This document shows positions 22,101 to 55,250 of a DNA stretch of 64,000 nt, in pieces. Origin of the DNA: Verrucomicrobiia bacterium (GTDB taxonomy: Bacteria; Verrucomicrobiota; Verrucomicrobiia; Limisphaerales; Pedosphaeraceae); the NCBI GenBank assembly GCA_036268055.1, contig DATAUW010000001.1, positions 62,001-126,000 on the forward strand, given 5' to 3'. The position numbers were made by a program, and so were the translations under genes. A model generated the notes under the pieces. That model had not been told where the DNA came from and did no database searches. It saw only the letters and a program-made list of their open reading frames with translations. The first letter of the stretch is position 1; every line of letters begins with the position of its first letter.

Positions 22101-22299
22101 CTAAAGAAAAGATTGCCGCGCCAAATTGAAACCAGATCCACCAAAACTTTTTCTCTTCTAAACCGCCCGCGCCAACCCTTTCCCAAACCCGCCCCGCAAA
22201 TTGCAAAAAAATCCCCACCAAACTGCATTTTGCATGATACAATTTCCAACTCTCCTCAACTCCTTCCACGCCCATCGAAACAATTCCCTCGCATGATTC

Positions 22300-22315
22300 T
22301 GGCATCCTTCCTGCA
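22300..22315 (+). promoter_or_regulatory. Possible sigma-54 promoter of the efflux pair
   Basis: TGGCATCCTTCCTGCA has the GG and GC pairs 12 bases apart as sigma-54 requires, with two departures from TGGCAC-N5-TTGCA. A start near 22327 would leave a leader of about 45 bases. Upstream lie TTGCAAAA at 22201 and the inverted pair TGCA-TTT-TGCA near 22223, possible activator sites. The rest of the 357-base gap after the pyruvate kinase gene holds two repeat copies and no gene. Confidence 0.45.
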
Positions 22316-29480: not shown

Positions 29481-29489
29481 GATTCACTA

Positions 29490-30604
<1,115 letters not shown>

Positions 30605-30608
<4 letters not shown>

Positions 30609-30892
30609 GGGGAATTCCCTCGCTCGCGCGCGAGCGCCTCAATGTCCGGCGGCTCCAATTCCTCAAGCTGCCCAAGTTCTTCCAGCGCCTTGTAAGTGCG
30701 TTCCGCCTCCGCCTCATCCACTTTCCCAATCGCCACGCCCACATGCACCAGCACGTAATCGCCGACTTGCACCTCCGGCATGTATGTAAGGCAGATTTGT
30801 TTGACCACCCCGCCGAAGTTTGTTCGCGCCATGCGCAAACCCTCGGCATCGTTAGCGATTTCGATCACCTTCCCAGGTATGGCCAGGCACAT
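30605..30892 (-). CDS. hypC: Hydrogenase assembly chaperone HypC/HupF
   Basis: A 95-residue chaperone starting [12 protein letters not shown], with the essential Cys2 that carries the iron unit between HypD and the hydrogenase large subunit. A typical [20 protein letters not shown] segment follows. The C-terminal 25 residues are Glu- and Leu-rich, as in many HypC proteins. It lies 4 bases after the NifU/Rieske-like gene and overlaps hypD. Confidence 0.96.
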
Positions 30893-30896
30893 TTTT

Positions 30897-31823
30897 TTAT
30901 TTAGAAAATGGTTCCACCGAAATTTTTACCGCGTCATTCGCCGTCAGCAACGGAAACAACTCGAGATGAATCTCCCGCCGGTGTGGGCACATGCCCGCGC
31001 GGCGCGCGTCGAATTCATGTCCTCGGCGGCATTTCAAGATATTCAGTTTTAACGTCCCCTCGTCAAGCCGCGTACCGCACGCCGGACAAAGATTGCGATA
31101 CGCATAAAGATTCCCGCCGGTCTTCACCACCAGCACCGGCGCATCTTCTAATTCAATGGATCGCATCTCGCCTTCATCGAGTTCACCCAAATCCTCCAGC
31201 ACGATCCAATGCAAAGGCTCCGTCGGCGCAACTCCGGCAATGGGTGGCTGCATCAGCACGGCTTCAACTTCGAATCTCAGCAAATCCGGGCATGCTTCTT
31301 CCACCGCCTCGCGCACTGCCAATTCCATTGTCAGCGAAGAGGACGGAAAATCCTGGCATTCGCTTCGCACCCGCAATCGCGCGTGATTGTTTTCAAACGT
31401 GATGAGTTCCACGTTCCCGCCCTGGCTTTGCATGAAGGGACGCACCCGATCCAACGCCTCAAGCAATCGCTTTTCCAGCGGCACCGGATGTAATCCATGA
31501 ATCAACAGCAATCCCCGGATGACACCATCGCGCAACAACCCATCGCTCAACTCCCTGCCCGCCGCGCCCGCGTTCTTGAGCAGTTGCATGATCCGTCTCA
31601 GCCCGTCTTCGTGCAGTTCCAAAACCGATTCCAAACACTCCCGCAAAAGCTCGCGCGCCTGGGTATCCTGAAGCGAACTGATTTTGCCGGTCAATTCCTG
31701 GATGCGCCGGCCACGCGATTTCGTTTCGACTTGCGGGAAGTGCGCCGCATCACCCGCCGGTCCGTCCAACTTCGACGGAATAGAGGTGAGGGCTAAAATC
31801 GCATTCATACCGTTCAACACCAT
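30897..31823 (-). CDS. NifU-like/Rieske-like fusion protein with altered metal-ligand motifs
   Basis: A 308-residue cytoplasmic protein. A helical region (to about 130) precedes a NifU C-terminal-type domain (LDRVRPFMQSQGGNVELI). In place of the usual iron-sulfur CxxC, this domain reads ECQDFPSS, with the second Cys replaced by Phe. The C-terminal 90 residues look Rieske-like (VLVVKTGGNLYAYRNLCPAC, then CRRGHEFDARRAG). The first pair is CPAC rather than CxH, and the second is CRRGH, one residue longer than CxxH. NifU/Rieske-like proteins accompany some uptake hydrogenases and may deliver clusters or carry electrons. Its place in this operon supports a hydrogenase role, but cluster type and binding are uncertain. 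Confidence 0.85.
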   Translation of the reverse strand: MVLNGMNAILALTSIPSKLDGPAGDAAHFPQVETKSRGRRIQELTGKISSLQDTQARELLRECLESVLELHEDGLRRIMQLLKNAGAAGRELSDGLLRDGVIRGLLLIHGLHPVPLEKRLLEALDRVRPFMQSQGGNVELITFENNHARLRVRSECQDFPSSSLTMELAVREAVEEACPDLLRFEVEAVLMQPPIAGVAPTEPLHWIVLEDLGELDEGEMRSIELEDAPVLVVKTGGNLYAYRNLCPACGTRLDEGTLKLNILKCRRGHEFDARRAGMCPHRREIHLELFPLLTANDAVKISVEPFSK

Positions 31824-31830
31824 TTACAAA

Positions 31831-32358
31831 CTAAACTTCTTTTGTTACCGCCGGAGCAAGGCCGGACGATTTCGTTTTTCCGCCAGTAAGTTCCCGGATC
31901 AATTCACCAATCATTGCCATCGCGCCTGGTATTGCCGCTTTCACTTTCTCGCTCAATTCCAGCGCACCGTCCTCGTTCTCAACCATCGCCGGTTCACAGC
32001 CAACCAAAAATAATTTCCCCCGCACGCCACCGCCGAGCGATTGCGCCATTTGTATCACCGCGACCGGATCCATCGAATGCGCATCCACCGAAGTGCGGTC
32101 AAGTTCGTTCAAATGGTTCATATCCGGCTCGATCAGATAAACCGTCCCCGGCGCCTGGCCGCGCGTCGTGGCATCCACCAGAATGATCGCATCAAAATCA
32201 TTCGTCAGCGCATAAGCCAGATCGTAACTGCGAATGCCGAAGTCCGTGACCGTCACATTTTCAGGAAGCTTCACCCGTTTCAATTCGCGCGCGACTTCGC
32301 AGCCAAAGGCATCGTCGCCGTAAAAAATATTTCCAATGCCCGCGACGAGTATTTTCAT
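31831..32358 (-). CDS. [NiFe]-hydrogenase maturation endopeptidase (HyaD/HybD family)
   Basis: A 175-residue protease that trims the C-terminus of the hydrogenase large subunit after nickel insertion. The start at 32356-32358 (MKILVAGIGNIFYGDDAFG) is the classical family start; the frame is open 13 codons upstream. The nickel-sensing acidic residue is in GDDAFG, a second Asp in LVDATTRG, and the conserved His in VDAHSMDP. It is the first gene of the maturation operon. Its presence implies that hydrogenase subunits are encoded elsewhere in the genome. Confidence 0.95.
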   Translation of the reverse strand: MKILVAGIGNIFYGDDAFGCEVARELKRVKLPENVTVTDFGIRSYDLAYALTNDFDAIILVDATTRGQAPGTVYLIEPDMNHLNELDRTSVDAHSMDPVAVIQMAQSLGGGVRGKLFLVGCEPAMVENEDGALELSEKVKAAIPGAMAMIGELIRELTGGKTKSSGLAPAVTKEV

Positions 32359-32662
32359 GCGAGTGCCTTCATGGATGGATGGGTATTTTTCCGGCACGAA
32401 GTCGGCGGAGAAATTTCAGAGATGAGAGTGATGCTTTTCATTCTGCTCCAAGCCTTGTCATCCCTCCATCCCCGGCCCGGCTTAAAGGCCATCAACCATT
32501 GCTATTATTATCGCCAGCAAAATCTTGCGGCTTCTCGAATGTTCAGCACGACATATACCACCCGTAAAATGCAATAAAATCAGCAAAAGAAAAGCGACAC
32601 CTCTTGCAGATTGCAAAAAAGTGCCGCATTTTATTCGCAAATTGCGCGAGACGTTTTTGTCG
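32359..32662. other. Upstream region of the hydrogenase maturation operon
   Basis: About 300 bases without a supported gene, expected to contain the operon promoter on the minus strand. GGCAC and TTGCA occur on that strand at 32626-32611, but the GG and GC pairs are 11 rather than 12 bases apart, so this is not called a sigma-54 promoter. A 65-codon minus-strand frame at 32482-32679 overlaps the next gene and lacks support. Confidence 0.5.
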
Positions 32663-33225: not shown

Positions 33226-33768
33226 TCAAGGTTTCGCTTTCACGGCGGCTTCCGTCGTCTGCGCCATGCTCAAATGTTCCTGCAAGGTCGGCAGCGTCTT
33301 GGAAACCCAGCCCTTCAAATCGGCGTCGTCCCCGTGGTCCGCTTCTTTCTGAAACATTTTCACCGTTTTTTCGTGGTCGCTAAGCATGATCTTCATATAC
33401 GCCTTGTCGAAATCGTTGCCGGAAAGATTTTGCAATTTCTCCGTCTCCTTTTCGACTTTCTTCGGCTCGGCGTCCGGCAGCGTCGCGCCTTTCTGCGACA
33501 CCAGTCCGGTCAATTCATGGTTGGCCTTGGTGTGGTCGGTCACCATCCGTTGCGCAAAATCGCGCACGGCCGAATCCGATGCCTTGCTCACGGCAACCTG
33601 GCTGAAGCTGACTTCCGCATTGCCACCCTCGGCAGCCTTGCAAACGAAGCTAAAATCGTGCTCCGAAAGCTGGCCACGATTTTCCGCCGCCTGCGCCACG
33701 GTAAACTGCCCCAGCGCGAACAAAGTTCCGACTGTGATATAACTCAAAAGTTTCGATGACTGTTTCAT
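33226..33768 (-). CDS. DUF4142 exported protein
   Basis: About 180 residues from the ATG at 33766-33768, which starts a clear signal peptide (MKQSSKLLSYITVGTLFALG, cut after AQA). The frame is open 63 codons upstream, but that text is not protein-like. The DUF4142 four-helix core shows DFSFVCKAAEGGNAEVSFSQ, RDFAQRMVTDHTKANHEL and YMKIMLSDHEKTVKMF, with the regularly placed His and Asp typical of this ferritin-like family. It is periplasmic with unknown function. It lies 26 bases before the PfpI gene on the same strand. Confidence 0.92.
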   Translation of the reverse strand: MKQSSKLLSYITVGTLFALGQFTVAQAAENRGQLSEHDFSFVCKAAEGGNAEVSFSQVAVSKASDSAVRDFAQRMVTDHTKANHELTGLVSQKGATLPDAEPKKVEKETEKLQNLSGNDFDKAYMKIMLSDHEKTVKMFQKEADHGDDADLKGWVSKTLPTLQEHLSMAQTTEAAVKAKP

Positions 33769-34008
33769 AGGTTTTGTTAATTTGTGTTGTTGGCTGACGA
33801 ACTTCAAAACCGGCCTGTTCTCAAGGCCGTTGCTGACTTCAGCGAAAGTTGTGCCAAGCCGGTTTCGGCCCATTCCTTGGTTAAAACCACCTTTAATGCC
33901 CTCAATGGATGGACTTTCCAGCCGGTCTGGCCTTTTCCTCAAAAATGCCTTATGCAATTTGCGCCGGAAAAGATTGCGAATTGCGTGGAATCGCGGCCAT
34001 TGCTCGGA

Positions 34009-40077: not shown

Positions 40078-41892
40078 TTACGGATTCGAGACGCGGTAGA
40101 AGCGGGCGGTGTTCGTTGTGCTGACTTCGTTATATTCCTGAGTGCCGGAGCTGGTGGCCACGGATGAGCCGAGCGCCGTCCAATGCGCCATATCGCTCGA
40201 TGCCTGAACGCGGTAACTAAACCCGGCGGGCGCATTAAATTTCAGGTGCGAAAATCCATTCGCGAGTTTGGAAACCCCGCCGAGGCGCAAGGCGTTCGTG
40301 TTCGCGAGCGGGCTGTTGTTGTGATAAAGGGCGAGCACGGGATTGACGTTGGTATCATAACCGGTGATCACCAGATCCAGACGTCCGTCATTGTCGGTGT
40401 CCACCCACGTGGCCGTGCCGAAGGAAAGTCCGGTGAACCCGGTGGACATATTGGTGAAAACATTGTTGCCGAGGTTGCGCCAGATTTGCGCCACGAAATT
40501 GCTGTTCGCATCCACACCGGTGATCGCAATGTCCAGCTTCCCGTCATTATCGAAATCTGCGACGGCAACTGAACTCTCCGACACGCCGGTAAGTCCCGCA
40601 TTCACATTGGCGAACGTGCCATTGCCAAGATTGCGCCAGATTTGCGCGATCGGTCCGTTGGACGCGAATCCAGTGATGACCAGGTCAAGTTTACCATCGC
40701 CATCGAAATCGCCCCACGCGACTGCGCCCTGCGAAACTCCCGGAAGATTGGCGTTGATATTGGCGAACGTGCCGTTGCCCAGATTGCGCCATACCTGACA
40801 AATAGAATCGTTATTCAAATCCGTAGTCGTCCCAGCGATGACGAAATCCTGGTTGCCGTCTCCATCAAAATCTCCCCACGCAGTGGAACTATAAAATACC
40901 CCCGACAAAGGAACATTCAGGTTGGCAAAAGTTCCGTTGCCTTGATTGTGCCACACCTGCGCGACGGCGCCGCTGTCGCCGAACCCGGTAAGGAGAACAT
41001 CGAGCCGCCCGTCATTATCCATGTCGCCCAGCGAAATCGAACCGGTATCCAACCCCGGAAGCGAAGTCGTCACCTCACTAAAAGATCCGCCGCCAAGATT
41101 GCGGTAGAGTTTGGTCACGCGCACGGGAAAACCCTGTCCGTCCACCCCCGCGAAACCGGAAAGCATGATGTCCTGGTTGCCATCATTATACATATCTCCC
41201 ACTGCGGCCGCGCTGCTGCTGACGCCGGCAATCGTAGCGTTGAGATTGGCAAAAACATTATTGCCGGTGTTACGCCAGACCTGCGAGATATTATTGAAGC
41301 TCGCGTTTTCGCCGGTGACCAGAAGATCGAGTTTGCCGTCGCCATCAAAATCTCCCCACGCAATCGCGCCATGCCCCACCGGCGGCAAAGCAATGGACGC
41401 AAGACTGAAGACCGTGGATGCGGAAGCCACGAACGAAATATCGTCGCCATTGGTAACACCTGCGGAACTGCTGGCAACAATACGATAATGATAAGTGGCG
41501 CCCGGAGTGAGGCCCGTCTGCAAGTGCGTGAAAGTGAATGTCACCGATCCCGAACCAATCGGCGTGGAAAACGTAGTGGTCCCGTAATTGGTCGTGGGAC
41601 CGATCTCAAAGGATACCGAGGTGGCGATACCGCCGGGATTGACCGAGGCATTCAACACCGCGCTGGTGGAGGTGATGGTCGTGGCGGCGAGAGTCTGCAC
41701 GAAGCCCGCAGCAGAACTGGTTTCGGGCGCAATGAGACTCATCAATAAAATGGAAAACCCGAAAGCCGCGCGCCAAAAAACTCGCCGCAAGATTTTCAGA
41801 AATCCAGTGAGCGAAAAAAGTTGTTGGTGTGGATTAATAATGGATGCGATACGGAAACGGTCGTCGTCTGGTGCAGGCTGCATCTTATTCAT
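40078..41892 (-). CDS. Secreted seven-repeat FG-GAP/VCBS beta-propeller protein
   Basis: About 604 residues from the ATG at 41890-41892; another ATG follows at 41883. The frame is open to 42138 but would run through a sigma-54 promoter. An exported signal (FWRAAFGFSILLMSLIAP) is preceded by a 45-residue basic N-region. A fibronectin-III-like domain spans about 65-155. Seven repeats with the calcium-loop pattern WGDFDGDGKLDLLVTG then fill about 165-535, the right number for an integrin-like propeller. The last 65 residues end in FYRVSNP, like the metallopeptidase at 571-3057. It is likely a surface adhesion or binding protein. Confidence 0.88.
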   Translation of the reverse strand: MNKMQPAPDDDRFRIASIINPHQQLFSLTGFLKILRRVFWRAAFGFSILLMSLIAPETSSAAGFVQTLAATTITSTSAVLNASVNPGGIATSVSFEIGPTTNYGTTTFSTPIGSGSVTFTFTHLQTGLTPGATYHYRIVASSSAGVTNGDDISFVASASTVFSLASIALPPVGHGAIAWGDFDGDGKLDLLVTGENASFNNISQVWRNTGNNVFANLNATIAGVSSSAAAVGDMYNDGNQDIMLSGFAGVDGQGFPVRVTKLYRNLGGGSFSEVTTSLPGLDTGSISLGDMDNDGRLDVLLTGFGDSGAVAQVWHNQGNGTFANLNVPLSGVFYSSTAWGDFDGDGNQDFVIAGTTTDLNNDSICQVWRNLGNGTFANINANLPGVSQGAVAWGDFDGDGKLDLVITGFASNGPIAQIWRNLGNGTFANVNAGLTGVSESSVAVADFDNDGKLDIAITGVDANSNFVAQIWRNLGNNVFTNMSTGFTGLSFGTATWVDTDNDGRLDLVITGYDTNVNPVLALYHNNSPLANTNALRLGGVSKLANGFSHLKFNAPAGFSYRVQASSDMAHWTALGSSVATSSGTQEYNEVSTTNTARFYRVSNP

Positions 41893-42014
41893 AATATAAT
41901 AACAGTTGCTTGAGGCATGTGCCGTGCTGGCATCGCCCTTCTGATTTTTGTTTGGCCGATCCGCTACCCATCGGGGCGGATGTCCGCTCGAAACGATTGG
42001 ACTCCGTAGCCTTT

Positions 42015-42030
42015 TGCAAATTAAGTGCCA
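42015..42030 (-). promoter_or_regulatory. Sigma-54 promoter of the beta-propeller gene
   Basis: On the minus strand TGGCACTTAATTTGCA is an exact TGGCAC-N5-TTGCA match, with GG and GC 12 bases apart. Transcription would start near 42004, about 110 bases before the ATG. Confidence 0.75.
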
Positions 42031-42369
42031 CGATGTCTCGCCGCTGGCTCCGTTGCAAAAGGCCGGTTTACAAAGGCTCCTTTTGCACGCTGCTTGCAAA
42101 ATACCTATTGCAAAAAGTTTTTCCTTAGCATTTTGCAAGTGTGCCGCGATGGCGAATTGCGACGAAACCTCGCCGCAGGCGTGCGGTTATCCGCATCCGC
42201 CCCGCGACAATTTGCAAGGTTCCACTTGGGAAATAAAAATCGTGCGGCGAAAAGGAACTGTTACTTGAAGGAGTTAGAAGAATTTGCAAATCGCATTTTT
42301 TTTTGCGCGCCCAAACCACGAATTGAGTGTTACCTCCGCCGGAACAGCGCGGGCCTTGCAAAATACCGG

Positions 42370-42385
42370 TGGCACTGGCCGTGCT
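42370..42385 (+). promoter_or_regulatory. Sigma-54 promoter of the VPD-CTERM gene
   Basis: TGGCACTGGCCGTGCT has the -24 box intact and the -12 box GTGCT in place of TTGCT, with correct 12-base GG-GC spacing. Transcription would start near 42397, about 70 bases before the ATG. Confidence 0.65.
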
Positions 42386-42465
42386 GAAACCTTCGCTAAT
42401 TGGTATGCGGAATGAGCAAACCGACCACGATCACTAACCAGAATCATCAGATAGAGCCAAACAAA

Positions 42466-43050
42466 ATGAAAAATAAACCAGCTACACTCGCCTGCGCCGC
42501 GGCCCTCACCCTCGGCGCATTGGGACTCACCGGAACCGCGCAAGCCGGTTCCATCTCGGGAACGGTTTCGTTCTCCGGCACCGCCGTCACTGACAGCGCC
42601 AACTTCATGACCTCAACGCGCTTCCTGTCATTTCAGGACGTATTCGTCGGCGCGAACTCAGCGCTGTTCGGAGATTACACCGGCACTTCCGGCGCCGCTG
42701 TGACCGTCACGCCCTTTATCTGGAACCCGGCCAACGCCAGCACGCCGATTGATCCCCTGTGGACTTTCACCGTTGGCGCAAAAACGTATTCCTTCGACAT
42801 CAGTTCCATTCATGAAGACTTCGCTGACCCGACCGGCATGTTGCTTTCGGGCATGGGCACGGCCTTCATCACTGGTGAAACCCCTACCAGCGGTGAATTC
42901 ATGCTGTCAGCCCAAACCATCGGCGTAGCTACCTTCACGTTCTCCTCCACCACCGAGGTCCCCGTGCCCGACAATGCGAACACGGTCATGCTGCTGGGTG
43001 GCGTCCTTTTCAGTTGCGCGCTCGTGCAACGCAAATTCAAAAAAGTCTGA
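42466..43050 (+). CDS. VPD-CTERM sorting-domain protein
   Basis: About 194 residues from the ATG at 42466 (MKNKPATLACAAALTLGALG, a signal peptide cut after AQA). The frame opens at 42400 but includes the promoter. The mature domain is a 140-residue beta-rich region without a recognised family. The C-terminus reads VPDNANTVMLLGGVLFSC followed by a basic RKFKK end. This is the VPDSG-CTERM arrangement of verrucomicrobial exosortase substrates: a short motif, a membrane helix and a positive tail. It should be processed and placed on the cell surface by an exosortase encoded elsewhere. The motif VPDNANT differs from VPDSGST at several positions. Confidence 0.87.
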   Translation: MKNKPATLACAAALTLGALGLTGTAQAGSISGTVSFSGTAVTDSANFMTSTRFLSFQDVFVGANSALFGDYTGTSGAAVTVTPFIWNPANASTPIDPLWTFTVGAKTYSFDISSIHEDFADPTGMLLSGMGTAFITGETPTSGEFMLSAQTIGVATFTFSSTTEVPVPDNANTVMLLGGVLFSCALVQRKFKKV

Positions 43051-43227: not shown

Positions 43228-45552
43228 CTATTTCAAATAAATTTTCATCTCCTTGCCTTGCAGCATATCGGTGTGTTTTACAAACCATCCGTCAAGCGGC
43301 TTGTCGCCGATGGTGATTTTATCAATATTATCGCCTTTGCCTTTTTTGACGATGGTGAAAGTCTCGCCGTTGCCCAGGGTTATGGCGATTTTGTCGAAAA
43401 TAGGCACTGATACGATGTATTCAGGGTCGGCTGGGGAGTAAGGGTAGATGCCCATGGCATTGAAGACATACCATCCCGTGAGCGAACCCTGATCGTCCAT
43501 TCCTGGCAAAGCCAGACCTTCAGCACCCATGCCAAAGTAATGGAAGAGCAGCTTGGTGAGAACGGCCTGTGATTTCTCCGGCTTATTCACGAAATAATAG
43601 AGGTAAGGATAGTTGAAGTCGGGCTGGTTACCCATGCAGAACTGTCCGAGAAAACACGATAGATTGTCCCTGGCATATCCTTTCCAGGGAATAGTAAACA
43701 GATCGTCGAGTTTCCGCTCGAAATCCGCCGGGCTTTTGTAAAGGCTGATTAAGCCCTGCGTATCCTGCGGCACGAAGAAAGATGCCTGCCAGGCATTAGC
43801 CTCGCGATACATAAACTCATAGTAGGGATAATATGGATCGAACGGCGCATACCAGGTTCCATCGGCAAGGCGGCCTCTCATCAGCTCAGTTTCCGGATCG
43901 AATACATTTTTGTAGTTCTGGCTGCGCTTCAACATTTCGTTGTACGTGTTGGTGTCGCCCAGCGCTTGGGCAAGCCGCGCGATGGAATAATCGGAATAGG
44001 CATACTCCAGCGTCTTGGTGGTTCCAGCGGTAGATTTAGTTTCGGTCACCGGGTGGGCGAGGTTGGCTTCGGGAACATAGCCGAGCGCCATATATTCTTT
44101 GTTGTGAGGCCTTGCCCGATTGCCGTCGCCAGTGTTGGCATTGTTAAGCATGTAGTGGAATGCCTCCTGAACATCAAAGTTCGTGACGCCGCGCAGATAC
44201 GACCCCGTTATGTAAGCCGAACCAAAATCGCCGTGGAACGAGGTGGGCAGAAATCCCGAACGCGCGCTGCGGCGCAACATGGAGTTGATAATCTCGTTGC
44301 TGACATCAGGAAGCAGCATGTCCAACAGGACCAGTTTAGTGCGGAAAGTATCCCACAAGGCCGGACTCGTCAGCGCTTCGAATTCTGCGCCGGCGTCGCT
44401 GGTAAGACTCGGGAACCAGAACTGCCGGAACAGGCAGGAGTAGAACAATTCTTTCTGCCGGTCAGTTCCGCCGGTTACCTGAATTTTGTCGAGCATCGTT
44501 TCCCAGTTTTGATTCGCCTCTTTGCGAACCTGAATGAAACTTTTTCCGCCAATCTCAACTTCCAGATTGTGTTTTGCCGCTTCGATGCTCGTATAGGAAA
44601 GGGCGATCTTTACCTCCAAAGGCTTGCTTTCCTTTTCGAAGCTGATTACCGGAACGTCAATCTTCCCGCTGATTCTTCTTCGACCGCCAGCGCCCTGGCC
44701 GGAACGCGGAATGACGGGCTGGTTGGGATCACGCTTGTAGGTATCTATGCTTTTGATGCGCTCATTCATCACGCAATAAAAGCACAAGCCACCCTGCTTT
44801 CCCGAAACGGCATAATCACCCGACTGCTGCAAATCCCAATCGCTGCTGCCGCCTCCTGAATGAACTAGATCGAATGCGAGTTTCTTCTCTTGCCCGCCCA
44901 GGTAGGTGAATTTGTAGTAAGCACACCGCCTGGTGGCAGTTACTTCAGCGTTGATGTCGTAGCGTTCCAGGCGAACCTGATAATAACCCGGGTGGGCCGA
45001 TTCACCGGCGTGGTTAAATTTCGATGCAAAATCATCGGCAGTGAATCCGCTGCCTTCAAGTGGCATGATGGGAATGTTCTGCTTTCCCCACTGCGTATCG
45101 CTCGTTTGAGCAAAAGCCTTGATCGTATTGACTTCGTATTCATATCCGCTCCCGCTGCCATAAGTAGTAATGGGAACTGCCTGAACCATGGCAAAGGGAA
45201 CAGTCGCTGCGGGCGCGTTCAAGCCATTCCAAGTCCGCCAGGACGCAACATAGCCGAGGTCGGCGCTGTTGGTCAGAACGGTGGTTCCGACAAAGGGATT
45301 CACATAGCTCGTCAGCGAACGACCTGTTTGGCTGAGATGACTGCAACCTGTTACGACCATCATCAACGCCGCAATCACAAGCTGTATTGAATTTCCAACG
45401 CAATTAAAAATGTTTGTTTTGCTATCTACCGGCCGGAATATTGATTTGCCGTTGGCAATTCCGGCAGGCCGGGGAGTGTTGGATTTTAATTTCCCAAATC
45501 TGAGGACTTCTCCTCTGATGGTTTCGGCTTGGGAGATTTTCGTGGTTTGCAT
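43228..45552 (-). CDS. GH92 family glycosidase (alpha-mannosidase type), lipoprotein
   Basis: About 774 residues from the ATG at 45550-45552; the longer frame begins with TTG at 45630. An N-terminal hydrophobic run ends in the lipobox-like VVTGC, preceded by a long region. GH92 landmarks are SYVNPFVGT, the aromatic and Pro-rich PAATVPFAMVQ, SGSGYEYEVN, FSHTS-like FAQTSDTQWG, GNQPDFNYPYLYYF and GMDDQGSLTGWYVFNAMG. GH92 enzymes are calcium-dependent exo-alpha-mannosidases that trim N-glycans or fungal mannan, using an inverting mechanism. It is probably anchored in the envelope. Which linkage is cut cannot be told here. Confidence 0.94.
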   Translation of the reverse strand: MQTTKISQAETIRGEVLRFGKLKSNTPRPAGIANGKSIFRPVDSKTNIFNCVGNSIQLVIAALMMVVTGCSHLSQTGRSLTSYVNPFVGTTVLTNSADLGYVASWRTWNGLNAPAATVPFAMVQAVPITTYGSGSGYEYEVNTIKAFAQTSDTQWGKQNIPIMPLEGSGFTADDFASKFNHAGESAHPGYYQVRLERYDINAEVTATRRCAYYKFTYLGGQEKKLAFDLVHSGGGSSDWDLQQSGDYAVSGKQGGLCFYCVMNERIKSIDTYKRDPNQPVIPRSGQGAGGRRRISGKIDVPVISFEKESKPLEVKIALSYTSIEAAKHNLEVEIGGKSFIQVRKEANQNWETMLDKIQVTGGTDRQKELFYSCLFRQFWFPSLTSDAGAEFEALTSPALWDTFRTKLVLLDMLLPDVSNEIINSMLRRSARSGFLPTSFHGDFGSAYITGSYLRGVTNFDVQEAFHYMLNNANTGDGNRARPHNKEYMALGYVPEANLAHPVTETKSTAGTTKTLEYAYSDYSIARLAQALGDTNTYNEMLKRSQNYKNVFDPETELMRGRLADGTWYAPFDPYYPYYEFMYREANAWQASFFVPQDTQGLISLYKSPADFERKLDDLFTIPWKGYARDNLSCFLGQFCMGNQPDFNYPYLYYFVNKPEKSQAVLTKLLFHYFGMGAEGLALPGMDDQGSLTGWYVFNAMGIYPYSPADPEYIVSVPIFDKIAITLGNGETFTIVKKGKGDNIDKITIGDKPLDGWFVKHTDMLQGKEMKIYLK

Positions 45553-45829
45553 AACCTTTTTTACTCCGTAGCCATCCGATGCACCATTCTGAATTTTGAC
45601 ACCCACGCTAACAAAGTCGCCTGCTTTCAAAGTCCGCGAATTGGACGCTTGCGTTCATTGTGAACTCTCTGGTAGAGTTAAGTCGTGATGTCGGCGTGTG
45701 CGAGCAAAACTGCTGGTTGCGGTCAGGAAATGGTTGCTTTGGCTTCCATGACCTTACACTCGTAAGCTTCGTAGCACACTGCCCAATCAGACATTCAATC
45801 AGCGACGCAAGTGATTGATTGTCAATGCA

Positions 45830-45916
45830 GCCGATGTGGCGGAATTGGCAGACGCGCTAGACTCAAAATCTAGTGTCTTTATTGACGTGTGGGTTCGACC
45901 CCCTCCATCGGTACCA
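45830..45916 (+). tRNA. tRNA-Leu (CAA)
   Basis: Acceptor GCCGATG/CATCGGT and anticodon stem CTAGA/TCTAG around the loop CTCAAAA give anticodon CAA. A long variable arm typical of class II tRNAs follows. The T-loop reads GGTTCGACC and CCA is encoded at 45914-45916. Confidence 0.95.
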
Positions 45917-45932
45917 CTTTCTTGTATGCTCT

Positions 45933-48419
45933 GTGTCTGACGGCGAAAAAGTGCAGTTGTCCTGCCCCAAGTGCGGGCAGCGGATTGCCGCACCGGCCAA
46001 CCGGGGCGGCGCTCGCGCCAAATGTCCTAATTGCCAAACGGTCTTTACCCTCCCTGGCCCGCGCACGGACGCTCCCTCTCCGCCGCGCCGCTACGATGGT
46101 CTTCCCCCTTTTCCAATCATTCGCGTTTATCGCGCCTGGCTTTGGTATGACGTCGTCGCCATTTACGAAAAACATCTTGTCTGCGGAAAACGCTTTTTGC
46201 TTCCGCCCAACATCACCGAGGAAATGTGCGCGCCTTCGGGCGAAGCCGCTCTGAAAAAAATTCTGTTCCGGCCCCGGAGCATTTTTTTCTCGGACATCAC
46301 GGAATTCAGGGAGGACGGTATAATTGCGCTGCCGTCTGCCGGCAACCGCGCGAATTCCTTCAGCATCGTTGGGAAAAAAAAGGAGCGGCTGCGCTTTTCC
46401 GTGCAAGCCTCGCAACTCAAAACTCCCCGCTCCTATTTTGCCACCATGCTTGGCGACCGCTACTGGCTCGCGAAAGGATCGTGGCTTTCGCGTTACTTTC
46501 TAGTGCGCTTGTTTTTGATTTGTGGTGTTCTGGCCCTCTTGTTCGGTTTCACTTCTTTCATTTATCGGTATCCAGTCCTTGCCTTGCTCGGTGTCGCGCC
46601 CGGCGCGGCTTTGTGCGGGCTCGGTTCATGGCTTCAATTCGGAAAAAAACGGCCCGAGAAAAAACAATTCAATAAATATCCCTCAAGTGAAGTCACGCCG
46701 TTGCGCTCAAAAACATCCGACGCGTCAGCACGCCCGCCCTTTCGCGCCGTATGGCTCGGTCTGCCGCTCAAGTTGCTTGGCGTGGCATATCTGATCGTTA
46801 TCGCCAGCCCGCTCACAAACGGGCTCGGCCCCATAGTCTTCCAACATTTTCATCACGCGAACACCATCATCTATTCGATTTGGGGATTGGTCTGGCTGCC
46901 CGCGCCGCTGTTGATATTGGCCGGCTATCGCCTGTGCGTGCGCCAGCGCGAACGCCTGAACAGCGCGGATGCGCGCAAACCCATCGTCATTCTCCGGCCA
47001 TTTGAAATGGATCCGGCCATTTCGCTTCAGCCCGCCGGTCCGCTGGCGTGGCTAATGGGAATCCGTTCCCGCTGGCTCATGCCGCCGGACCCGAAACCAA
47101 AACCCAAAAAACGCCGCTGGCATTTCCCGCTTTGGGACCTGTTGATGTTGAACCATCCGGTGAAACTTTTCCGGATGCTGCTTGATTTTTACGTCAAGCC
47201 CGCCGAGGAATCGCTCGTGAATTATTTTCGGAGACTTGGGCCCGTCCTGGCCATTGGCAAATCCGGCAATCCCACGACGCCGGAAAAAGAGCGCAAATAT
47301 TCCGACTATTCGCAATGGCAAAACACCGTTCGCAGTCAGCTTGCCCACGCGCAAGGCGTTGTCGTACTGCCCGGCGCGCCGGCGGGCGTCCGCTGGGAAC
47401 TCGAACAAGTCCACGCCAGCGTGGACCCATCGCGCGTCCTGCTTTGCCCAGCCGCCGATTGGCAAAATCCGCAGGCGTACGAGGAACTGTCCATGTTCGC
47501 GCGCAATATTTTGGAAGCAAACTTGCCGCGCGCATTGCCGTTCAGAAAACGGCCGGTATTTATTTTGTTTGATGAAAATTGGAAGCCGCGAGTTCACGAA
47601 CTGAATTACAAATTCCAATTACTTTGGCCGTTTATGAGCGATGCGGCGAGCCTGCGTCGTTCATTAAAACCCTTCGTCAAAGGCTGGGAGGGAAAGAAAT
47701 TGCCGGTGACGCGCCGCCCGAATTGGTTGCGCGCCACGCTCAACTGGTCCGGCACGGCCCTCGCTCTCGCATTCGCATTGGCTTTGATTTGCCTGCCCTT
47801 TTTTGGCGCGGATTCCACTGCCGAGGCGATCATTGATCCCGAATTTTCCGCCACAGTTGCGAGCGCGATCACTTTTGATGACGACAAAGAACCTGCGCCG
47901 TTTACCGCAATGGCGTCCGACGATCCGCAAGTCCAGGAAGCCACCAGCAACGCGGCCAAACAACTCGCCGCTCAAAATCATAAAACGCTCAAGGGCAAAT
48001 CCGTTTCGTACGAATTTGAAATTCCTGAAACGATGATCGAAGTGCCGGGTGACAATGACCTGATGGAATTCTCGCGCGAAAGTCCTGATGGCCGTCTTCG
48101 CCTCCAGGTTGTCGCCGCGGCGGGCAAGGAGGATTTGAATTCCTTGCCGGAATTGCGGCTGTCGCAAAACAATGTGCTCGGCAAATCCGAGGCTCGATTG
48201 GAATCCACGCAAAAAATTCGCGAAGGTAACGTGACGTGGACCGAGGCCCGCGTCCTGGCGAAGTCCAAGGATGGAATCGTCCGTGAAATCTCGCGCGGAA
48301 CCAGTGGCGATTACGGCACGATCATCGTCATCATTTCGTTGAATAATTCCGCCGAAACCGACCCGACCTATCAAACCATCGTGGACGATATTTTAAAATC
48401 GTTCAACGTGACGCATTGA
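45933..48419 (+). CDS. Zinc-ribbon multi-pass membrane protein with a conserved Rossmann-like central domain
   Basis: About 828 residues from the GTG at 45933. The frame opens inside tRNA-Leu at 45873, which cannot be the real start; GTG 45951 is an alternative. A zinc ribbon (CPKC...CPNC, Cys 11, 14, 31 and 34) is followed by membrane helix pairs near 189-236 and 279-336. A cytoplasmic domain at about 350-590 carries ILRPFEMD, GPVLAIGKSGNPTTPEKERK, WQNTVRSQLAHAQGVVVLPG and GVRWELEQV, then VFILFDENW. Another helix lies near 600-622, then a C-terminal alpha/beta domain at about 660-828 of PsbP-like look. The central block resembles membrane proteins of unknown role seen in many bacteria. The function is not known. 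Confidence 0.83.
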   Translation: MSDGEKVQLSCPKCGQRIAAPANRGGARAKCPNCQTVFTLPGPRTDAPSPPRRYDGLPPFPIIRVYRAWLWYDVVAIYEKHLVCGKRFLLPPNITEEMCAPSGEAALKKILFRPRSIFFSDITEFREDGIIALPSAGNRANSFSIVGKKKERLRFSVQASQLKTPRSYFATMLGDRYWLAKGSWLSRYFLVRLFLICGVLALLFGFTSFIYRYPVLALLGVAPGAALCGLGSWLQFGKKRPEKKQFNKYPSSEVTPLRSKTSDASARPPFRAVWLGLPLKLLGVAYLIVIASPLTNGLGPIVFQHFHHANTIIYSIWGLVWLPAPLLILAGYRLCVRQRERLNSADARKPIVILRPFEMDPAISLQPAGPLAWLMGIRSRWLMPPDPKPKPKKRRWHFPLWDLLMLNHPVKLFRMLLDFYVKPAEESLVNYFRRLGPVLAIGKSGNPTTPEKERKYSDYSQWQNTVRSQLAHAQGVVVLPGAPAGVRWELEQVHASVDPSRVLLCPAADWQNPQAYEELSMFARNILEANLPRALPFRKRPVFILFDENWKPRVHELNYKFQLLWPFMSDAASLRRSLKPFVKGWEGKKLPVTRRPNWLRATLNWSGTALALAFALALICLPFFGADSTAEAIIDPEFSATVASAITFDDDKEPAPFTAMASDDPQVQEATSNAAKQLAAQNHKTLKGKSVSYEFEIPETMIEVPGDNDLMEFSRESPDGRLRLQVVAAAGKEDLNSLPELRLSQNNVLGKSEARLESTQKIREGNVTWTEARVLAKSKDGIVREISRGTSGDYGTIIVIISLNNSAETDPTYQTIVDDILKSFNVTH

Positions 48420-48427
48420 TCGGTACA

Positions 48428-48470
48428 CAAAAAAAGCTGAAACCCGTTATCGGATTTCAGCTTGGTTTTA
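48428..48470. terminator. Bidirectional terminator between convergent genes
   Basis: AAGCTGAAA (48434-48442) pairs with TTTCAGCTT (48455-48463), with inner CCG/CGG pairing. A T-run on the minus-strand side and GGTTTT on the plus side suit both flanking genes. Confidence 0.88.
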
Positions 48471-48481
48471 AGGACTAAAAT

Positions 48482-49213
48482 TTATTTCGCGTCAATCACG
48501 CGGACCTTGATGTTCCGGAACGAAACCTGGCCGTGGTCGCCTTGCAGCGCGATATAACCGGTGGGCGATTTCGCAAAGCCCGGCATTTTCGAGAATTTGC
48601 TCTTCGCGACGCGTGCGTTGAAGTCATCGCTGCCGAGCACGTATTCAAAATATTTCACACCATTGATATCGTGCTCGCACTTGTCCGGGCTGATGAGCAG
48701 GCGCACATGGTTCCATTCGCCAACAGGCTTGGTGGCATCAAGCGTTTTGCCGGTGGCGGGATCAATCGGCGGCTGATACAACTGGTAAAGCCAGCCGCAA
48801 CGAATCGGATCGCGCGCTTCCTTATTGTCCTCAAGCTGGAACTCCGGCCCCGTCGCCCATACCGCGCCGCCCGTGTCGCCCACGTGATACATGATGCCGC
48901 TGTTGCCCGCCTCAGAGATATTATAATCCAGTTGCAACTCGAACCATTGATATTGATTGCTGGTCACGATATCGCCTGCGTTGTGCGGATCGGAACAAAC
49001 CAAAACGCCATCCTTCACTTCCCAGCCGGGGCGCACGCCGTCGTGCTTGAAATTATGCCAGCCATTGAAGTCCTTGCCGTCGAACAAAAGCTGCCAGCCC
49101 GCGGCGCGCTCACTGGAGCTAAGAGTATTAGGCTCGTCCTGCGCGTAAGCGGATGTGCCGGCGGCAAACGCGAGGGACAAACAAGTTAAAGAAATCAATA
49201 GGGTATTTTTCAT
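48482..49213 (-). CDS. DUF1080 (3-keto-disaccharide hydrolase-like) secreted protein
   Basis: A 243-residue exported protein (signal MKNTLLISLTCLSLAFAAGTS, cut near AYA). It has a single DUF1080 concanavalin-like jelly roll: GWQLLFDGKDFNGWHNFK, DGVLVCSDPHN, WFELQLDYNISEAGNSGIMYHVG, then WNHVRLLI and the closing GYIALQGDHGQVSFRNIKVR. DUF1080 members are very abundant in Verrucomicrobiota and Planctomycetota, and some cleave 3-keto-glycosides. It may act on glycosides first oxidised by Gfo/Idh/MocA enzymes such as the one at 9070-10236, but the genes are far apart. Confidence 0.94.
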   Translation of the reverse strand: MKNTLLISLTCLSLAFAAGTSAYAQDEPNTLSSSERAAGWQLLFDGKDFNGWHNFKHDGVRPGWEVKDGVLVCSDPHNAGDIVTSNQYQWFELQLDYNISEAGNSGIMYHVGDTGGAVWATGPEFQLEDNKEARDPIRCGWLYQLYQPPIDPATGKTLDATKPVGEWNHVRLLISPDKCEHDINGVKYFEYVLGSDDFNARVAKSKFSKMPGFAKSPTGYIALQGDHGQVSFRNIKVRVIDAK

Positions 49214-49301
49214 GAGTGCGAGATTAAGACGAAAGCCCCCGCCAACGCCAGCGAAAATCGTCTCCTCATTTTCGGGGAGCCGTAACCCTCTACACTTCCC
49301 T

Positions 49302-49712
49302 TTATCCGCCCGATTCGACTTTCTGCAATCGTTCCAGCGCGCCCTGGATGGCTTGAAGCGACCGCAGCATTTCCATTTTCAATTCGTCGCTCGGCGGATG
49401 CTCGGTGTCGGTCATGATCGCGCCTAATTTCTCCAGCAACGCAGGCGCGCGCTTTTTGAAACTGGCGATCTGGGTTTCCCACGCGAGTTTCTTTTTGGCG
49501 CAATCGAGCAGAACTTTCAAAAATTCCACTTCTTCGCGCGTCGTGCGCGTGCCCTGATATTTCGCGTTGACCACATTCAAATCCGCCATCACCGACGCAA
49601 TGGTGCGTTCGCTTCGCGCGATGTCGGCGGCGAATTTATTTACCTCAACCAAAACTTTTTGGCGTTCGGCCGCTTTGATGTGCGCCCTTTCAGTATAACG
49701 ATTCAAGGACAT
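49302..49712 (-). CDS. Small helical hypothetical protein
   Basis: A 136-residue, wholly alpha-helical, charged protein starting MSLNRYTERAHIKAAERQKV. There is no signal peptide or membrane segment, and heptad-like spacing of Leu, Ile and Val suggests a coiled coil through most of its length. Parts read FAADIARSERTIASVMADL and EFLKVLLDCAKKKLAWE. I do not recognise the family. It lies between the DUF1080 and GH3 genes on the same strand, separated from GH3 by a terminator, so it is probably transcribed alone. Confidence 0.7.
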   Translation of the reverse strand: MSLNRYTERAHIKAAERQKVLVEVNKFAADIARSERTIASVMADLNVVNAKYQGTRTTREEVEFLKVLLDCAKKKLAWETQIASFKKRAPALLEKLGAIMTDTEHPPSDELKMEMLRSLQAIQGALERLQKVESGG

Positions 49713-49754
49713 ATTTGCAGGTTGCGCAACAAATTCGGCTAAATCAAGCGCTCA

Positions 49755-49795
49755 ATAAAAAAATGCAGCGGTTGCCGCTTTCGCCGCAACCGCTG
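49755..49795 (-). terminator. Terminator of the GH3 gene
   Basis: AGCGGTTGC (49767-49775) and GCAACCGCT (49786-49794) form a perfect 9-bp stem, followed on the minus strand by a T-run at 49763-49757. Confidence 0.9.
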
Positions 49796-49812
49796 AATGT
49801 GTTCAAGATTTT

Positions 49813-51708
49813 TTAGTAGCTCAAACCAAAACCATAGGAAAACTGCGGCGCTTCAACCACCGTCGTCGGATTCAGGATTTGCTCATTGCTGCGCGGCCAG
49901 GTGCGCGAAAGTTTGCCTTTGAATTTATAATCGCCGAACAAAACATCCGCCACGCCTTCGCCTTCCGAACCCGGCAGCCATGCGGCGACAAACGCATCGC
50001 TCATATCAAATGAATTTCCCAGCACCAGCGGACGGCCCGAAAGCAAAATGGTGACCACCGGCACGCCGGCGCCTTTCGCTTTTTTGATCAACGCCGCATC
50101 GGCCGCGGCGAGGTTCAGGTCTTTGCGGTCGCCCTTCATTTCCGCATAAGGCTGTTCGCCCACCACGACAATGATTTCGTCCGCGCCGGAAAGATTTTCG
50201 CCGTTCGCGGAGTAACTCACCTGGATTTCCTTGATCGCCGCTTCTTTGCGAATGCCATCAAGAATCGTCGTGCCGCCATCCACTCGCTGGCCCGCTTCGC
50301 CCTGCCAGCCGATAGTCCAACCGCCGCATTGGATACCCAAATCATTCGCGCCTTTGCCCACGACCGCGAGGCGTTTCAAGTTCTTCGAGAGCGGCAGCGC
50401 GCGATTGCTATTCTTCAGCAACACCAACGATTCCCGCACACATTCACGCGCCACGAGACGATGCTCCGGCGAACCGACTTCCTCCGTCAGCTTGGGATCG
50501 GTCGAGATGTTTTCAAAAATGCCGAGCATATATTTCTCGCGCAGGATGCGATGCACCGCATCGTCAATGCGCGATTGCGGAATCTTTCCTTCGCTCACAA
50601 GTTCCTTCATATAGCGGATGAATTCCTCGTAATTATTTTTCTGCCCCGGGCCGTTCGGAATCATGATCATGTCGAGACCCGCATTGATCGAAATCTCCAC
50701 GCAACTCTTATAATTATTCGTGATCTGGTCAATCGCCGCCCAATCCGAGATGAGAAATCCTTTGAAACCGAGTTCGCCCTTCAACACGCCCGTCAGCAAA
50801 TCCTTGTTCGCGTGCATTCTGACGCCGTTCCAACTGTTGTACGAAACCATGATCGAACCGACGCCCGCCTTCACGGTCGCAACGTAAGGCGCCAAAAATA
50901 ATTTGCGCATCCGCTCGTCGTCGCCCACGGAATTTCCCTGATCAATGCCATCGGTCGTGCCGCCGTCCGCGAGGAAATGTTTGGCGCACGCGAGCACCGA
51001 GCCATCATCGGAAAGTTTCTTGCCCTGATAACCATGCACCGCCGCCGCGCCGAGTTCCGAGCACAATTCCGGGTTCTCGCCAAAGCTCTCGTAGGTGCGG
51101 CCCCAGCGTTCATTCTGCGCCACCGCCACGCACGGGGCAAAGGCCCATCGGATGCCTGTGCCCGCGACTTCTTCCGCCGTCACGCGCGCGGCTTTCTCGA
51201 TCAATTTTGGATTGCGCGTCGCGCCCAAACCGACGTTGTGCGGGAACATGACCGCGCCCTGCACGTTATTATGGCCGTGCACGGCGTCAATGCCGTAGAG
51301 CAGCGGAATCTTGAGACGCGTCTTGAGCGCGTAAGATTGAAATTCGTCGGTCGCCGCGAGCCAGCCTTTCGCCGTGATGTCCGCCGGGTCGGAACTGCCG
51401 CCGCTCAACACCGAGCCAAAACCATATTTCTGGACATCGCTCATGTTCTTCTTCAACGCGTCCATATCTACTTGCGTCATCTGCCCGATCTTTTCGTCGA
51501 GCGTCATCTTCGCCAGCAACGCATCGGCTTCGCTATCTGCCTTCGCCGCGCTCTGCGCAAACACACTCTGGCTGGGAAAGGCAAGCGCGCTTGCCAGCAT
51601 GAGAGACAGGACGCCTGCTCGCGTGCAAACATGTTGCGCGAGGCTGATCTTAAAAAACGAATTCCGATGACCGTGCGAGGACGGTGGTTGCGTAGATTGT
51701 GAAAACAT
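49813..51708 (-). CDS. GH3 family beta-glucosidase, secreted
   Basis: A 631-residue retaining beta-glycosidase. The signal region is VLSLMLASALAFPSQSVFAQ, preceded by about 30 residues. The N-terminal barrel starts LLAKMTLDEKIGQMTQVD and contains YGIDAVHGHNNVQGAVMFPH, AKHFLADGGT and the nucleophile block GFLISDWAAID. The second domain contains LVLLKNSNRALPL and ends near SRTWPRSNEQILN and FSYGFGLSY. Length and motifs match barley-exoglucanase-like GH3 enzymes that act on beta-1,3/1,4-gluco-oligosaccharides. It is divergent from GH30, and the two share a 99-base promoter region. Confidence 0.96.
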   Translation of the reverse strand: MFSQSTQPPSSHGHRNSFFKISLAQHVCTRAGVLSLMLASALAFPSQSVFAQSAAKADSEADALLAKMTLDEKIGQMTQVDMDALKKNMSDVQKYGFGSVLSGGSSDPADITAKGWLAATDEFQSYALKTRLKIPLLYGIDAVHGHNNVQGAVMFPHNVGLGATRNPKLIEKAARVTAEEVAGTGIRWAFAPCVAVAQNERWGRTYESFGENPELCSELGAAAVHGYQGKKLSDDGSVLACAKHFLADGGTTDGIDQGNSVGDDERMRKLFLAPYVATVKAGVGSIMVSYNSWNGVRMHANKDLLTGVLKGELGFKGFLISDWAAIDQITNNYKSCVEISINAGLDMIMIPNGPGQKNNYEEFIRYMKELVSEGKIPQSRIDDAVHRILREKYMLGIFENISTDPKLTEEVGSPEHRLVARECVRESLVLLKNSNRALPLSKNLKRLAVVGKGANDLGIQCGGWTIGWQGEAGQRVDGGTTILDGIRKEAAIKEIQVSYSANGENLSGADEIIVVVGEQPYAEMKGDRKDLNLAAADAALIKKAKGAGVPVVTILLSGRPLVLGNSFDMSDAFVAAWLPGSEGEGVADVLFGDYKFKGKLSRTWPRSNEQILNPTTVVEAPQFSYGFGLSY

Positions 51709-51753
51709 AATGGTTTATTGAGCGCCAAGGTTACTGAGTTACTAATACGACGC

Positions 51754-51776
51754 CACCCCTCTTTAGAGGGGTGCGC
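51754..51776. repeat. CACCCCTC hairpin, copy 1
   Basis: CACCCCTC/GAGGGGTG with loop TTTA, followed by CGC; the 23 bases are identical to 57827-57849. It lies between the divergent GH3 and GH30 genes. Confidence 0.85.
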
Positions 51777-51807
51777 ACCGCGATATAAATGAATACGTTC
51801 TAGCCGT

Positions 51808-53214
51808 ATGCAACCCGTTCACACACGATTTTTGCGCGTCTGCGCGTGCGCTCTGATTTCGTTTTTCGTGACCCTGACAGGTTTTGCGCAGGTGCATCTG
51901 TGGCTCACGAATCCCGACCAATCCATATTGTTTCAGGACCAAAAAGACAGCCTTAATTTTGTCACCACGTCCAATGATAACCCAACCATCGTCGTGGATG
52001 AATCCCAAACTTTTCAAACGATGGATGGCTTTGGTTGCTGTCTCACCGGCGGGAGCGCGATGCACTTGATTCGCATGGATGCCAATGCCCGCGTGAAGTT
52101 ATTGCAGGAATTATTTTCCACCAGCGGCACCAACATCGGCCTGAGTTACTTGCGCGTAAGCATCGGCGCATCGGATTTGAACGACCACGTTTTTTCCTAT
52201 GACGATCTGCCCGCGGGACAAACCGATCCCGCCATGAAACAATTCAGCCTGGCGCAAGACCGCGAGGACGTGATTCCCATTCTCAAGGAAATTCTCGCGA
52301 TCAATCCCGACGTCTTGATTCTTGGCTCGCCCTGGTCGCCACCGGCGTGGATGAAGGACAACCACGACACGCGCGGCGGCAAGCTGCTCAAGGAATATTA
52401 CCCCGCTTATGCAAATTACTTCGTAAAATATATCGAAGGCATGAAGGCCGAAAGCATCCGCATTGATGCCATCACCGTTCAAAACGAACCACTCAATCCC
52501 AAGAACAATCCCAGCGTGGAAATGGAAGCGCCCGAGGAAGCCGATTTCATCAAAAATAATCTCGGCCCCGCCTTCGCCAAGGCGAACATTCACACCAAAA
52601 TCATTCTCTACGACCATAATTGCGATCACCCTGAATATCCCATCTCGATTCTCGACGATCCTGGTGTCAGCAAATACGTGGACGGCTCGGCCTTCCATTT
52701 ATACGCCGGCGATATCAAAGCCCTCACCAAAGTCCATGAGGCGCACCCCGATAAATCGGTCTATTTTACTGAACAATGGGTCGGTGCTTCCACTAGCATT
52801 AAACGCGGATTGACCGAGCACATGCGCAATCTGATCATCGGCGCCACGCGCAACTGGAGCCGCAACGTCCTCGAATGGAATCTTGCCGCCGATGCCAAGC
52901 ATGAGCCCCATACAGATCGAGGCGGCTGCACGACCTGTCTCGGTGCGGTCACGATCGAGGGCAACGAAGTCTCCCGCAATGCCGCATATTATATAATGGC
53001 GCACGCGGCGAAATTCGTCCGCCCCGGCTCCGTGCGTATCGCTTCCAATTATCTCACTACACTGCCCAACGTCGCCTTCCACGCGCCCAACGGTGAAAAA
53101 GTTTTGGTCGTTCTCAACAGCAGTTCGCATTCCCAAAATTTCAACATTGAGTATCAAGGCCGGCAGGTGGATTCGGTCTTGAACAGCGGCGCGGTCGGCA
53201 CTTACGTTTGGTAA
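51808..53214 (+). CDS. GH30 family glycosidase (glucosylceramidase-like), secreted
   Basis: A 468-residue retaining enzyme with a signal peptide (ACALISFFVTLTGFAQ). The family start QTMDGFGCCLTGGSAMHL is followed by SYLRVSIGASD, LGSPWSPPAWMKDN, the acid/base ITVQNEPLNP and the nucleophile FTEQWVG. The C-terminal beta-sandwich is short (SVRIASNY to NSGAVGTYVW). GH30 members of this form cleave beta-glucosylceramide, beta-1,6-glucan or related beta-glucosides. With the adjacent GH3 and the symporter it probably degrades a beta-glucan to glucose for uptake. Subfamily assignment needs alignment. Confidence 0.94.
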   Translation: MQPVHTRFLRVCACALISFFVTLTGFAQVHLWLTNPDQSILFQDQKDSLNFVTTSNDNPTIVVDESQTFQTMDGFGCCLTGGSAMHLIRMDANARVKLLQELFSTSGTNIGLSYLRVSIGASDLNDHVFSYDDLPAGQTDPAMKQFSLAQDREDVIPILKEILAINPDVLILGSPWSPPAWMKDNHDTRGGKLLKEYYPAYANYFVKYIEGMKAESIRIDAITVQNEPLNPKNNPSVEMEAPEEADFIKNNLGPAFAKANIHTKIILYDHNCDHPEYPISILDDPGVSKYVDGSAFHLYAGDIKALTKVHEAHPDKSVYFTEQWVGASTSIKRGLTEHMRNLIIGATRNWSRNVLEWNLAADAKHEPHTDRGGCTTCLGAVTIEGNEVSRNAAYYIMAHAAKFVRPGSVRIASNYLTTLPNVAFHAPNGEKVLVVLNSSSHSQNFNIEYQGRQVDSVLNSGAVGTYVW

Positions 53215-53227
53215 ACACGGCATTCCG

Positions 53228-53248
53228 TTTCGCAAAAGTATTGCGAAA
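53228..53248. promoter_or_regulatory. Possible operator or hairpin before the symporter gene
   Basis: TTTCGCAA and TTGCGAAA form a perfect 8-bp inverted repeat around AAGTA, 14 bases after the GH30 stop and 56 before the symporter ATG. No T-tract follows, so an operator or attenuating hairpin is as likely as a terminator. Confidence 0.4.
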
Positions 53249-53304
53249 GAAAATCACGGCAGCTAAATTCCGTTCAATCGCCTTTTTGCAACTGAACTAA
53301 AAAC

Positions 53305-55011: not shown

Positions 55012-55026
55012 ACTCCACCACCGCTT

Positions 55027-55245
55027 ATGAAATTTGACCTGCGCTTCCCCATCGGCATTCTCTTCACCATTTACGGGATCATGCTCGTCGGCTACGGCGC
55101 GGCGACCAACTCCGATACCGCGATGTACCAAAACTCCTCGCTCGGCATCAACATCAACCTGTGGTGGGGAATCGTGCTGCTCGTGTTCGGCCTCCTGATG
55201 CTCGGCGGCGCCTTGCTCGGACGCAAAACACCGCCGTCGGAATAG
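55027..55245 (+). CDS. Small two-helix membrane protein next to the symporter
   Basis: A 72-residue protein with two hydrophobic helices (PIGILFTIYGIMLVGYGA and LWWGIVLLVFGLLMLGGALL) joined by a polar loop with NSDTAMYQ and GININ. It starts MKFDLRFPIG. The 15-base gap and shared strand make it part of the symporter transcript. It could be an accessory subunit or stabiliser of the transporter; this is inferred only from position. Its stop is 5 bases from the convergent GH2 stop. Confidence 0.82.
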   Translation: MKFDLRFPIGILFTIYGIMLVGYGAATNSDTAMYQNSSLGININLWWGIVLLVFGLLMLGGALLGRKTPPSE

Positions 55246-55250
55246 TTTCT

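Follow-up and report, generated by a model that had tools for sequence, protein, structure and literature searches.

Background

Regulons governed by NtrC-type enhancer-binding proteins (EBPs) have -24/-12 promoters preceded at about 80-200 bp by dyad operators, and include autoregulated response-regulator EBPs with a Fis-type helix-turn-helix. The proteobacterial PEP-CTERM regulon combines motif 1, a 17-nt sequence ending in TTTACA, with a sigma-54 promoter (motif 2) and with PrsK/PrsR; the authors who described it found these motifs in no group other than Proteobacteria (Haft et al. 2006, PMC1569441). The pepA gene of Aquincola tertiaricarbonis is RpoN-dependent and has a mapped sigma-54 promoter of the TGGCAC/-12 form (PMC9850573).

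The window (the whole 64-kb stretch of verrucomicrobial DNA analysed here) presents, like pepA, a CTERM gene with a sigma-54 promoter, here a predicted one; pepA differs in being of the PEP type, in being proteobacterial, and in having a previously predicted enhancer, with no mention of a TTGCAA array (PMC9850573). Motif 1, part of the regulon of the 2006 paper (PMC1569441), is missing from the window locus. Sigma-54 regulons of Verrucomicrobia seem hardly described in the literature searched, and no comparable case was found there, as the initial annotation of this DNA had supposed. It would appear, with a rough probability of 0.6, that the gap between two divergent genes of the window is a divergent sigma-54 control region, in which an array of TTGCAA sites serves as the upstream activator sites of one of the genome's own EBPs.

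Divergent promoters and a TTGCAA array in the 41.9-42.5 kb gap

The gap separates two divergent surface-protein genes, whose start codons lie at 41892 (minus strand) and 42466 (plus strand). The minus-strand gene (40078..41892) encodes, by its translation, a secreted beta-propeller protein of the FG-GAP/VCBS type, 604 aa long from the ATG at 41892 (Pfam FG-GAP_3, E 2e-50; FG-GAP, E 1e-19); a longer open reading frame starts at 42138. The plus-strand gene (42466..43050) translates into a small protein that is secreted and ends in a VPD-type CTERM tail (VPVPDNANTVMLLGG...RKFKKV). It matched no named family, and its homologues end in PDGG/PDSG tails.

Both sigma-54 sites proposed earlier for the gap are present, share the -24/-12 pattern GG-N10-GC, and are the sole strict-pattern matches in 64 kb. 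TGGCACTTAATTTGCA (42015..42030, minus strand) stands 122 bp before the beta-propeller ATG and scores 11.2 bits, and TGGCACTGGCCGTGCT (42370..42385, plus strand) stands 80 bp before the VPD-CTERM ATG and scores 13.7 bits, using a matrix derived from other genes of the same genome. Individually these scores are moderate, as 508 kb contain 19 sites equal to or better than the plus site and 56 equal to or better than the minus site. The minus site is a perfect textbook consensus, found 8 times in the genome vs 2 for the reversed pattern; the plus promoter has counterparts before homologues of the VPD-CTERM gene (L030, L032, L034). A sigma-54 reading depends on rpoN, and the genome has one match (E 4e-60, C34:97440). 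An 11-bp perfect inverted repeat (GCCTTTTGCAA / TTGCAAAAGGC, 42009-42064) encloses the -24 element of the minus promoter.

Between and beside the two promoters are nine distinct TTGCA/TGCAA sites, from 42012 to 42363. The initial annotation had counted about nine, along with two perfect palindromes (TTTGCAAA at 42013 and ATTTGCAAAT at 42282) and a duplicated 13-mer (CTTGCAAAATACC at 42093 and 42355), all of which were recovered. Site 1 (42014..42019, minus strand) covers part of the minus promoter's -12 element. It is followed by site 2 (TTGCAAAAGGC, 42053..42058, plus), site 3 (42083..42088, minus; GTGCAAAAGGA on that strand), site 4 (TTGCAAAATACCTA, 42094..42099, plus), site 5 (TTGCAAAAAGT, 42108..42113, plus) and site 6 (TTGCAAAATGC, 42133..42138, minus). 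The remaining three, site 7 (TTGCAAATTGT, 42212..42217, minus), site 8 (TTGCAAATCGC, 42284..42289, plus) and site 9 (TTGCAAAATACC, 42356..42361, plus), precede the plus sigma-54 site by 158, 86 and 14 bp, the last abutting the -24 element. The core is exactly TTGCAA at eight sites, and TTGCAC on the plus strand at site 3.

TTGCAA occurs 8 times in these 573 bp vs 0.24 expected, the maximum for the genome in 508 kb. The most over-represented 6-mers of the region are TGCAAA (11 vs 0.48, P 5e-12) and TTGCAA itself (P 2e-10), and three TTGCAA spaced by 4-30 bp occur at one place in 5.1 Mb, the reversed pattern at none. The gap is AT-richer than its surroundings (50% GC vs 55.6% for the window), and a coincidence of composition might be imagined, with fortuitous TTGCAA and sigma-54 look-alikes. 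Given the significance of the excess, its rank as the densest of 508 kb and the unique spacing pattern, this account is extremely improbable: the 508 kb average 0.24 TTGCAA per 573 bp rather than the equal density that would have undone the earlier reading. For the array chance is refuted; for either sigma-54 site taken singly it is possible.

No period near 10.5 has useful support in the placement of the array sites. RNA structure in the gap (z -2.2 and -2.7) is accounted for by the self-complementary sites, and a replication origin was rejected, the skew being unchanged there. No orthologous locus was found in close relatives, so comparison yields no footprint of the array.

Putative operator GCA-WWW-TGC at other sigma-54-like promoters

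The stretches read directly cover about half of the genome. Strong single matches to TTGCAAAA elsewhere in the genome are nearly all intragenic, and the exceptions pointed to sigma-54-like promoters. With a permissive promoter definition, which lets in false promoters, a matrix built from the array alone (array masked, top 400 matches in 1.72 Mb, zone 30-200 bp upstream) yields 19 matches upstream of sigma-54-like promoters vs 6.9 +/- 2.9 for permuted matrices (0/300). The core GCA-WWW-TGC occurs 15 times upstream of sigma-54-like sites vs 1.38 expected, the clear top of 24 palindromes of the same composition (the remainder, pooled, give 18 vs 13.2 expected), in a count where the core was recognised in the very sample counted and two stretches (L092, L279) were chosen knowing their matches. 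Because the core came from the same data, a held-out 400 kb was tested; this small test gives 2 vs 0.24 (P 0.025), or 2 vs 0.11 (P 0.006) with a stricter promoter cut, a weak but concordant result. One of the held-out targets is presumably a DUF892/YciF-like protein.

The array itself contains one perfect GCA-WWW-TGC among its nine sites, within site 6: the dyad GCATTTTGC (42128..42136), a putative operator that precedes the minus sigma-54 site by 98-106 bp. In their right half the array sites resemble TGC more often than chance predicts (17/27, P 6e-5). The operator is probably GCA-WWW-TGC (extended TTGCA-WWW-TGC), with the nine sites as its copies, whether intact or degenerate. The distance from dyad to promoter is 76-111 bp at the DUF4142, C5, C24 and BON/UbiB promoters, and array site 4 shares its 14-mer TTGCAAAATACCTA with a position about 100 bp upstream of a canonical sigma-54 site (G000:C5:127175). 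The proposal that the TTGCAA cores act as upstream activator sites gains from this, the same motif being tied to sigma-54-like promoters elsewhere in the genome; with similar sites before other sigma-54 genes, the array seems to belong to an undescribed regulon and not to be a product of chance.

Most of the putative targets have to do with stress or the envelope: DUF883, DUF4142, YciF-like, BON, PRC-barrel plus BON, AI-2E transporter and UbiB-type kinase. A hydrogenase maturation protease and an HlyD-MFS pair are further putative targets. A putative member within the window is the DUF4142 gene (33226-33768), with the sigma-54-like promoter TGGCACAACTTTCGCT (33841..33856, minus strand) and the putative operator GCAATTTGC (33954..33962) about 100 bp upstream of 33856. 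The sigma-54-like promoter TGGTATATGTCGTGCT (32545..32560, minus strand) precedes the hydrogenase maturation protease gene (31831-32397), with TTGCAGATTGCAA (32604-32616) and GCAAATTGC (32637-32645) upstream of 32560, and TGGCATCCTTCCTGCA (22300..22315, plus strand) precedes the HlyD-MFS efflux gene pair, with GCAAATTGC (22196) and GCATTTTGC (22225) spanning 22196..22233 upstream of 22300. Behind the promoter at 32560, positions 27800-32560 hold genes for hydrogenase maturation (HycI-type protease, HypC/HypD/HypE-like and NifU-Rieske fusion proteins).

A different kind of regulator could also account for an operator cluster of this sort. The array might belong to a repressor or a sigma-70 activator, for instance a RamB/PrpR-like protein binding TTTGCAAA, with the sigma-54 sites incidental or separately controlled. 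Operators of the TTTGCAAA type are on record for mycobacterial PrpR and RamB, and the overlap of site 1 with a -12 element and the abutment of site 9 on a -24 element are positions typical of repression. The source genome has no match to the ScfR family (PF09856), on which ground a regulator of the RamB/PrpR type was rejected, and the linkage of the motif to sigma-54-like promoters elsewhere speaks against a non-EBP regulator. We regard this alternative as unlikely.

Candidate activators

A Pfam scan of 30 window proteins brought up no local regulator. Nine EBP genes of the genome were examined, and one has the operator in the promoter of its own operon, in two copies: the DUF883-EBP operon on contig C24, where CGCATTTTGCAA and TTGCATAATGCGG lie upstream of TGGCACGATTCCAGCA. 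This EBP, whose gene follows the DUF883 gene, has a receiver domain and a Fis-type helix-turn-helix. Since none of the other eight shares this feature, the response-regulator EBP of C24 is the best candidate and the most likely activator of the array, a choice made only on the logic of autoregulation. A recurring upstream dyad common to sigma-54 promoters, together with a candidate EBP that has the operator in its own promoter, matches the general plan of NtrC-type regulons. What sets this one apart from such regulons in general is the operator sequence GCA-WWW-TGC, the crowding of nine sites into a single gap, and a stress/envelope gene set for which no match among named regulons was found.

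The family's only other cluster of three TTGCAA (L037, G002:C13, 1480-1700) sits in the relative G002 between a gene for a receiver-less EBP and an exosortase gene, and an EBP like that one could be supposed to act on the array. Ahead of eight orthologous EBP genes TTGCA sites are about 12-fold enriched (20 vs 1.7), a sign that this EBP family may regulate itself. The cluster and the enrichment are real, but an orthologue is absent from the source genome (36% identity for the best match), the G002 sites are TTGCAAT repeats and not GCA-WWW-TGC, and in the stretches read an exosortase neighbour occurs only at the G002 orthologue. An activator of this kind is very improbable, and the candidate was rejected.

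The PrsR-type regulon and the VPD-CTERM gene

The TTGCAA cluster was at first taken as the mark of a VPD-CTERM regulon. That view does not hold: the cluster is absent at 18 candidate CTERM loci, most of which share a different box. This box, CGTCGG-N5-YTTACA (17 nt, ending in TTTACA or a close variant), is found with a sigma-54 site before eleven PD-type CTERM genes, none of which has a TTGCAA array. The form CGTCGR-N5-YTTACA occurs 13 times in the genome vs 2 for the reversed pattern, 12 of the 13 being before PD-type CTERM genes; no such box stands before the PEP-type CTERM genes of the genome (L008, L012, L015, L018). Contig C10 carries a complete exosortase locus (L068, 1094-19074), which encodes an XrtC-like exosortase, PrsT, PrsK, PrsR and two CTERM proteins. 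PrsK, PrsR and PrsT score over curated cut-offs (422.7/300, 609.5/502.6 and 496.5/312.2 bits), and the exosortase has XrtC as its best match at 273.5 bits, just below the model cut-off of 300. Sigma-54 promoters with an upstream EBP box at CTERM genes, and the presence of PrsK, PrsR and PrsT, recall the proteobacterial system, although box and promoter are here 81-127 bp apart from start to start (about 100 bp) vs a mean spacer of 62.8 nt there (PMC1569441). Across 144 genomes of the order the box is mostly at control level, and the source genome stands out (11 vs 1).

For the VPD-CTERM gene of the window, the homologues in G015 and G007 and the paralogue on C10 all have a PrsR-type box and a sigma-54 promoter, while in 41800-42500 the best box score is 1.3 bits vs 20-26 for real boxes. 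Because its relatives have both elements and the window gene has no box, the plus promoter is, judged from sequence, a promoter of the family type with its usual activator site missing. The gene might still be a normal PrsK/PrsR target acting through an unrecognised site, with the array serving the beta-propeller gene only. The Prs proteins and XrtC-like exosortase of the genome, the boxes of the homologues and paralogue, and the resemblance of the plus sigma-54 site to theirs all fit such an arrangement, and the very low box score here makes it quite improbable. Another CTERM gene of the PrsR type (G000:C17:536185) carries boxes and a sigma-54 site with a full dyad TTGCATACTGCAA (L124, 9104) in between, which may link the PrsR-type and GCA-WWW-TGC regulons.

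Proposed mechanism

Since the PrsR-type box is missing at the window gene and the array is missing at other CTERM genes, the array most likely puts the beta-propeller gene under a separate sigma-54 activator, and probably the VPD-CTERM gene too. We infer the following course for binding, looping and co-regulation. The active EBP would bind the array as dimers and then oligomerise, and looping would let it open sigma-54 polymerase at 42030 on the minus strand, for transcription of the beta-propeller gene. Probably the polymerase at 42370 on the plus strand would be opened as well, from sites 7 and 8, for transcription of the VPD-CTERM gene. A single activator would then serve both divergent genes, with the VPD-CTERM promoter clearly less well supported than that of the beta-propeller gene. 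Since the same operator stands before sigma-54-like promoters of stress and envelope genes, the physiological role would be to make the two surface proteins together with a stress-type regulon. Speculatively, negative feedback may come from site 1, which covers part of a -12 element, and from site 9, which adjoins a -24 element; from their positions these two sites could equally well repress.

A bolder version of this proposal is offered tentatively, at somewhat less than even odds: the VPD-CTERM gene would have kept its sigma-54 promoter while nine sites for a stress-type EBP took the place of the PrsR box, and an undescribed verrucomicrobial stress regulon under sigma-54 would turn on an exosortase substrate along with a beta-propeller protein. 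If true, the window locus would represent an exosortase substrate with a changed activator and the same sigma factor. One genome yields two testable regulons. The first is a CTERM regulon of the PrsR type that lies outside Proteobacteria and whose box and spacing are defined; the second is a putative GCA-WWW-TGC stress/envelope regulon with a named candidate activator.

Other features of the window

An 848-aa protein encoded at 45873-48419 has an apparent N-terminal zinc-ribbon and membrane segments, and matches no Pfam family. Positions 43228-60524 hold a carbohydrate-use cluster, with GH92, GH3-like, GH30, sodium:solute symporter and GH2 genes and a GH36 gene with an NPCBM domain.
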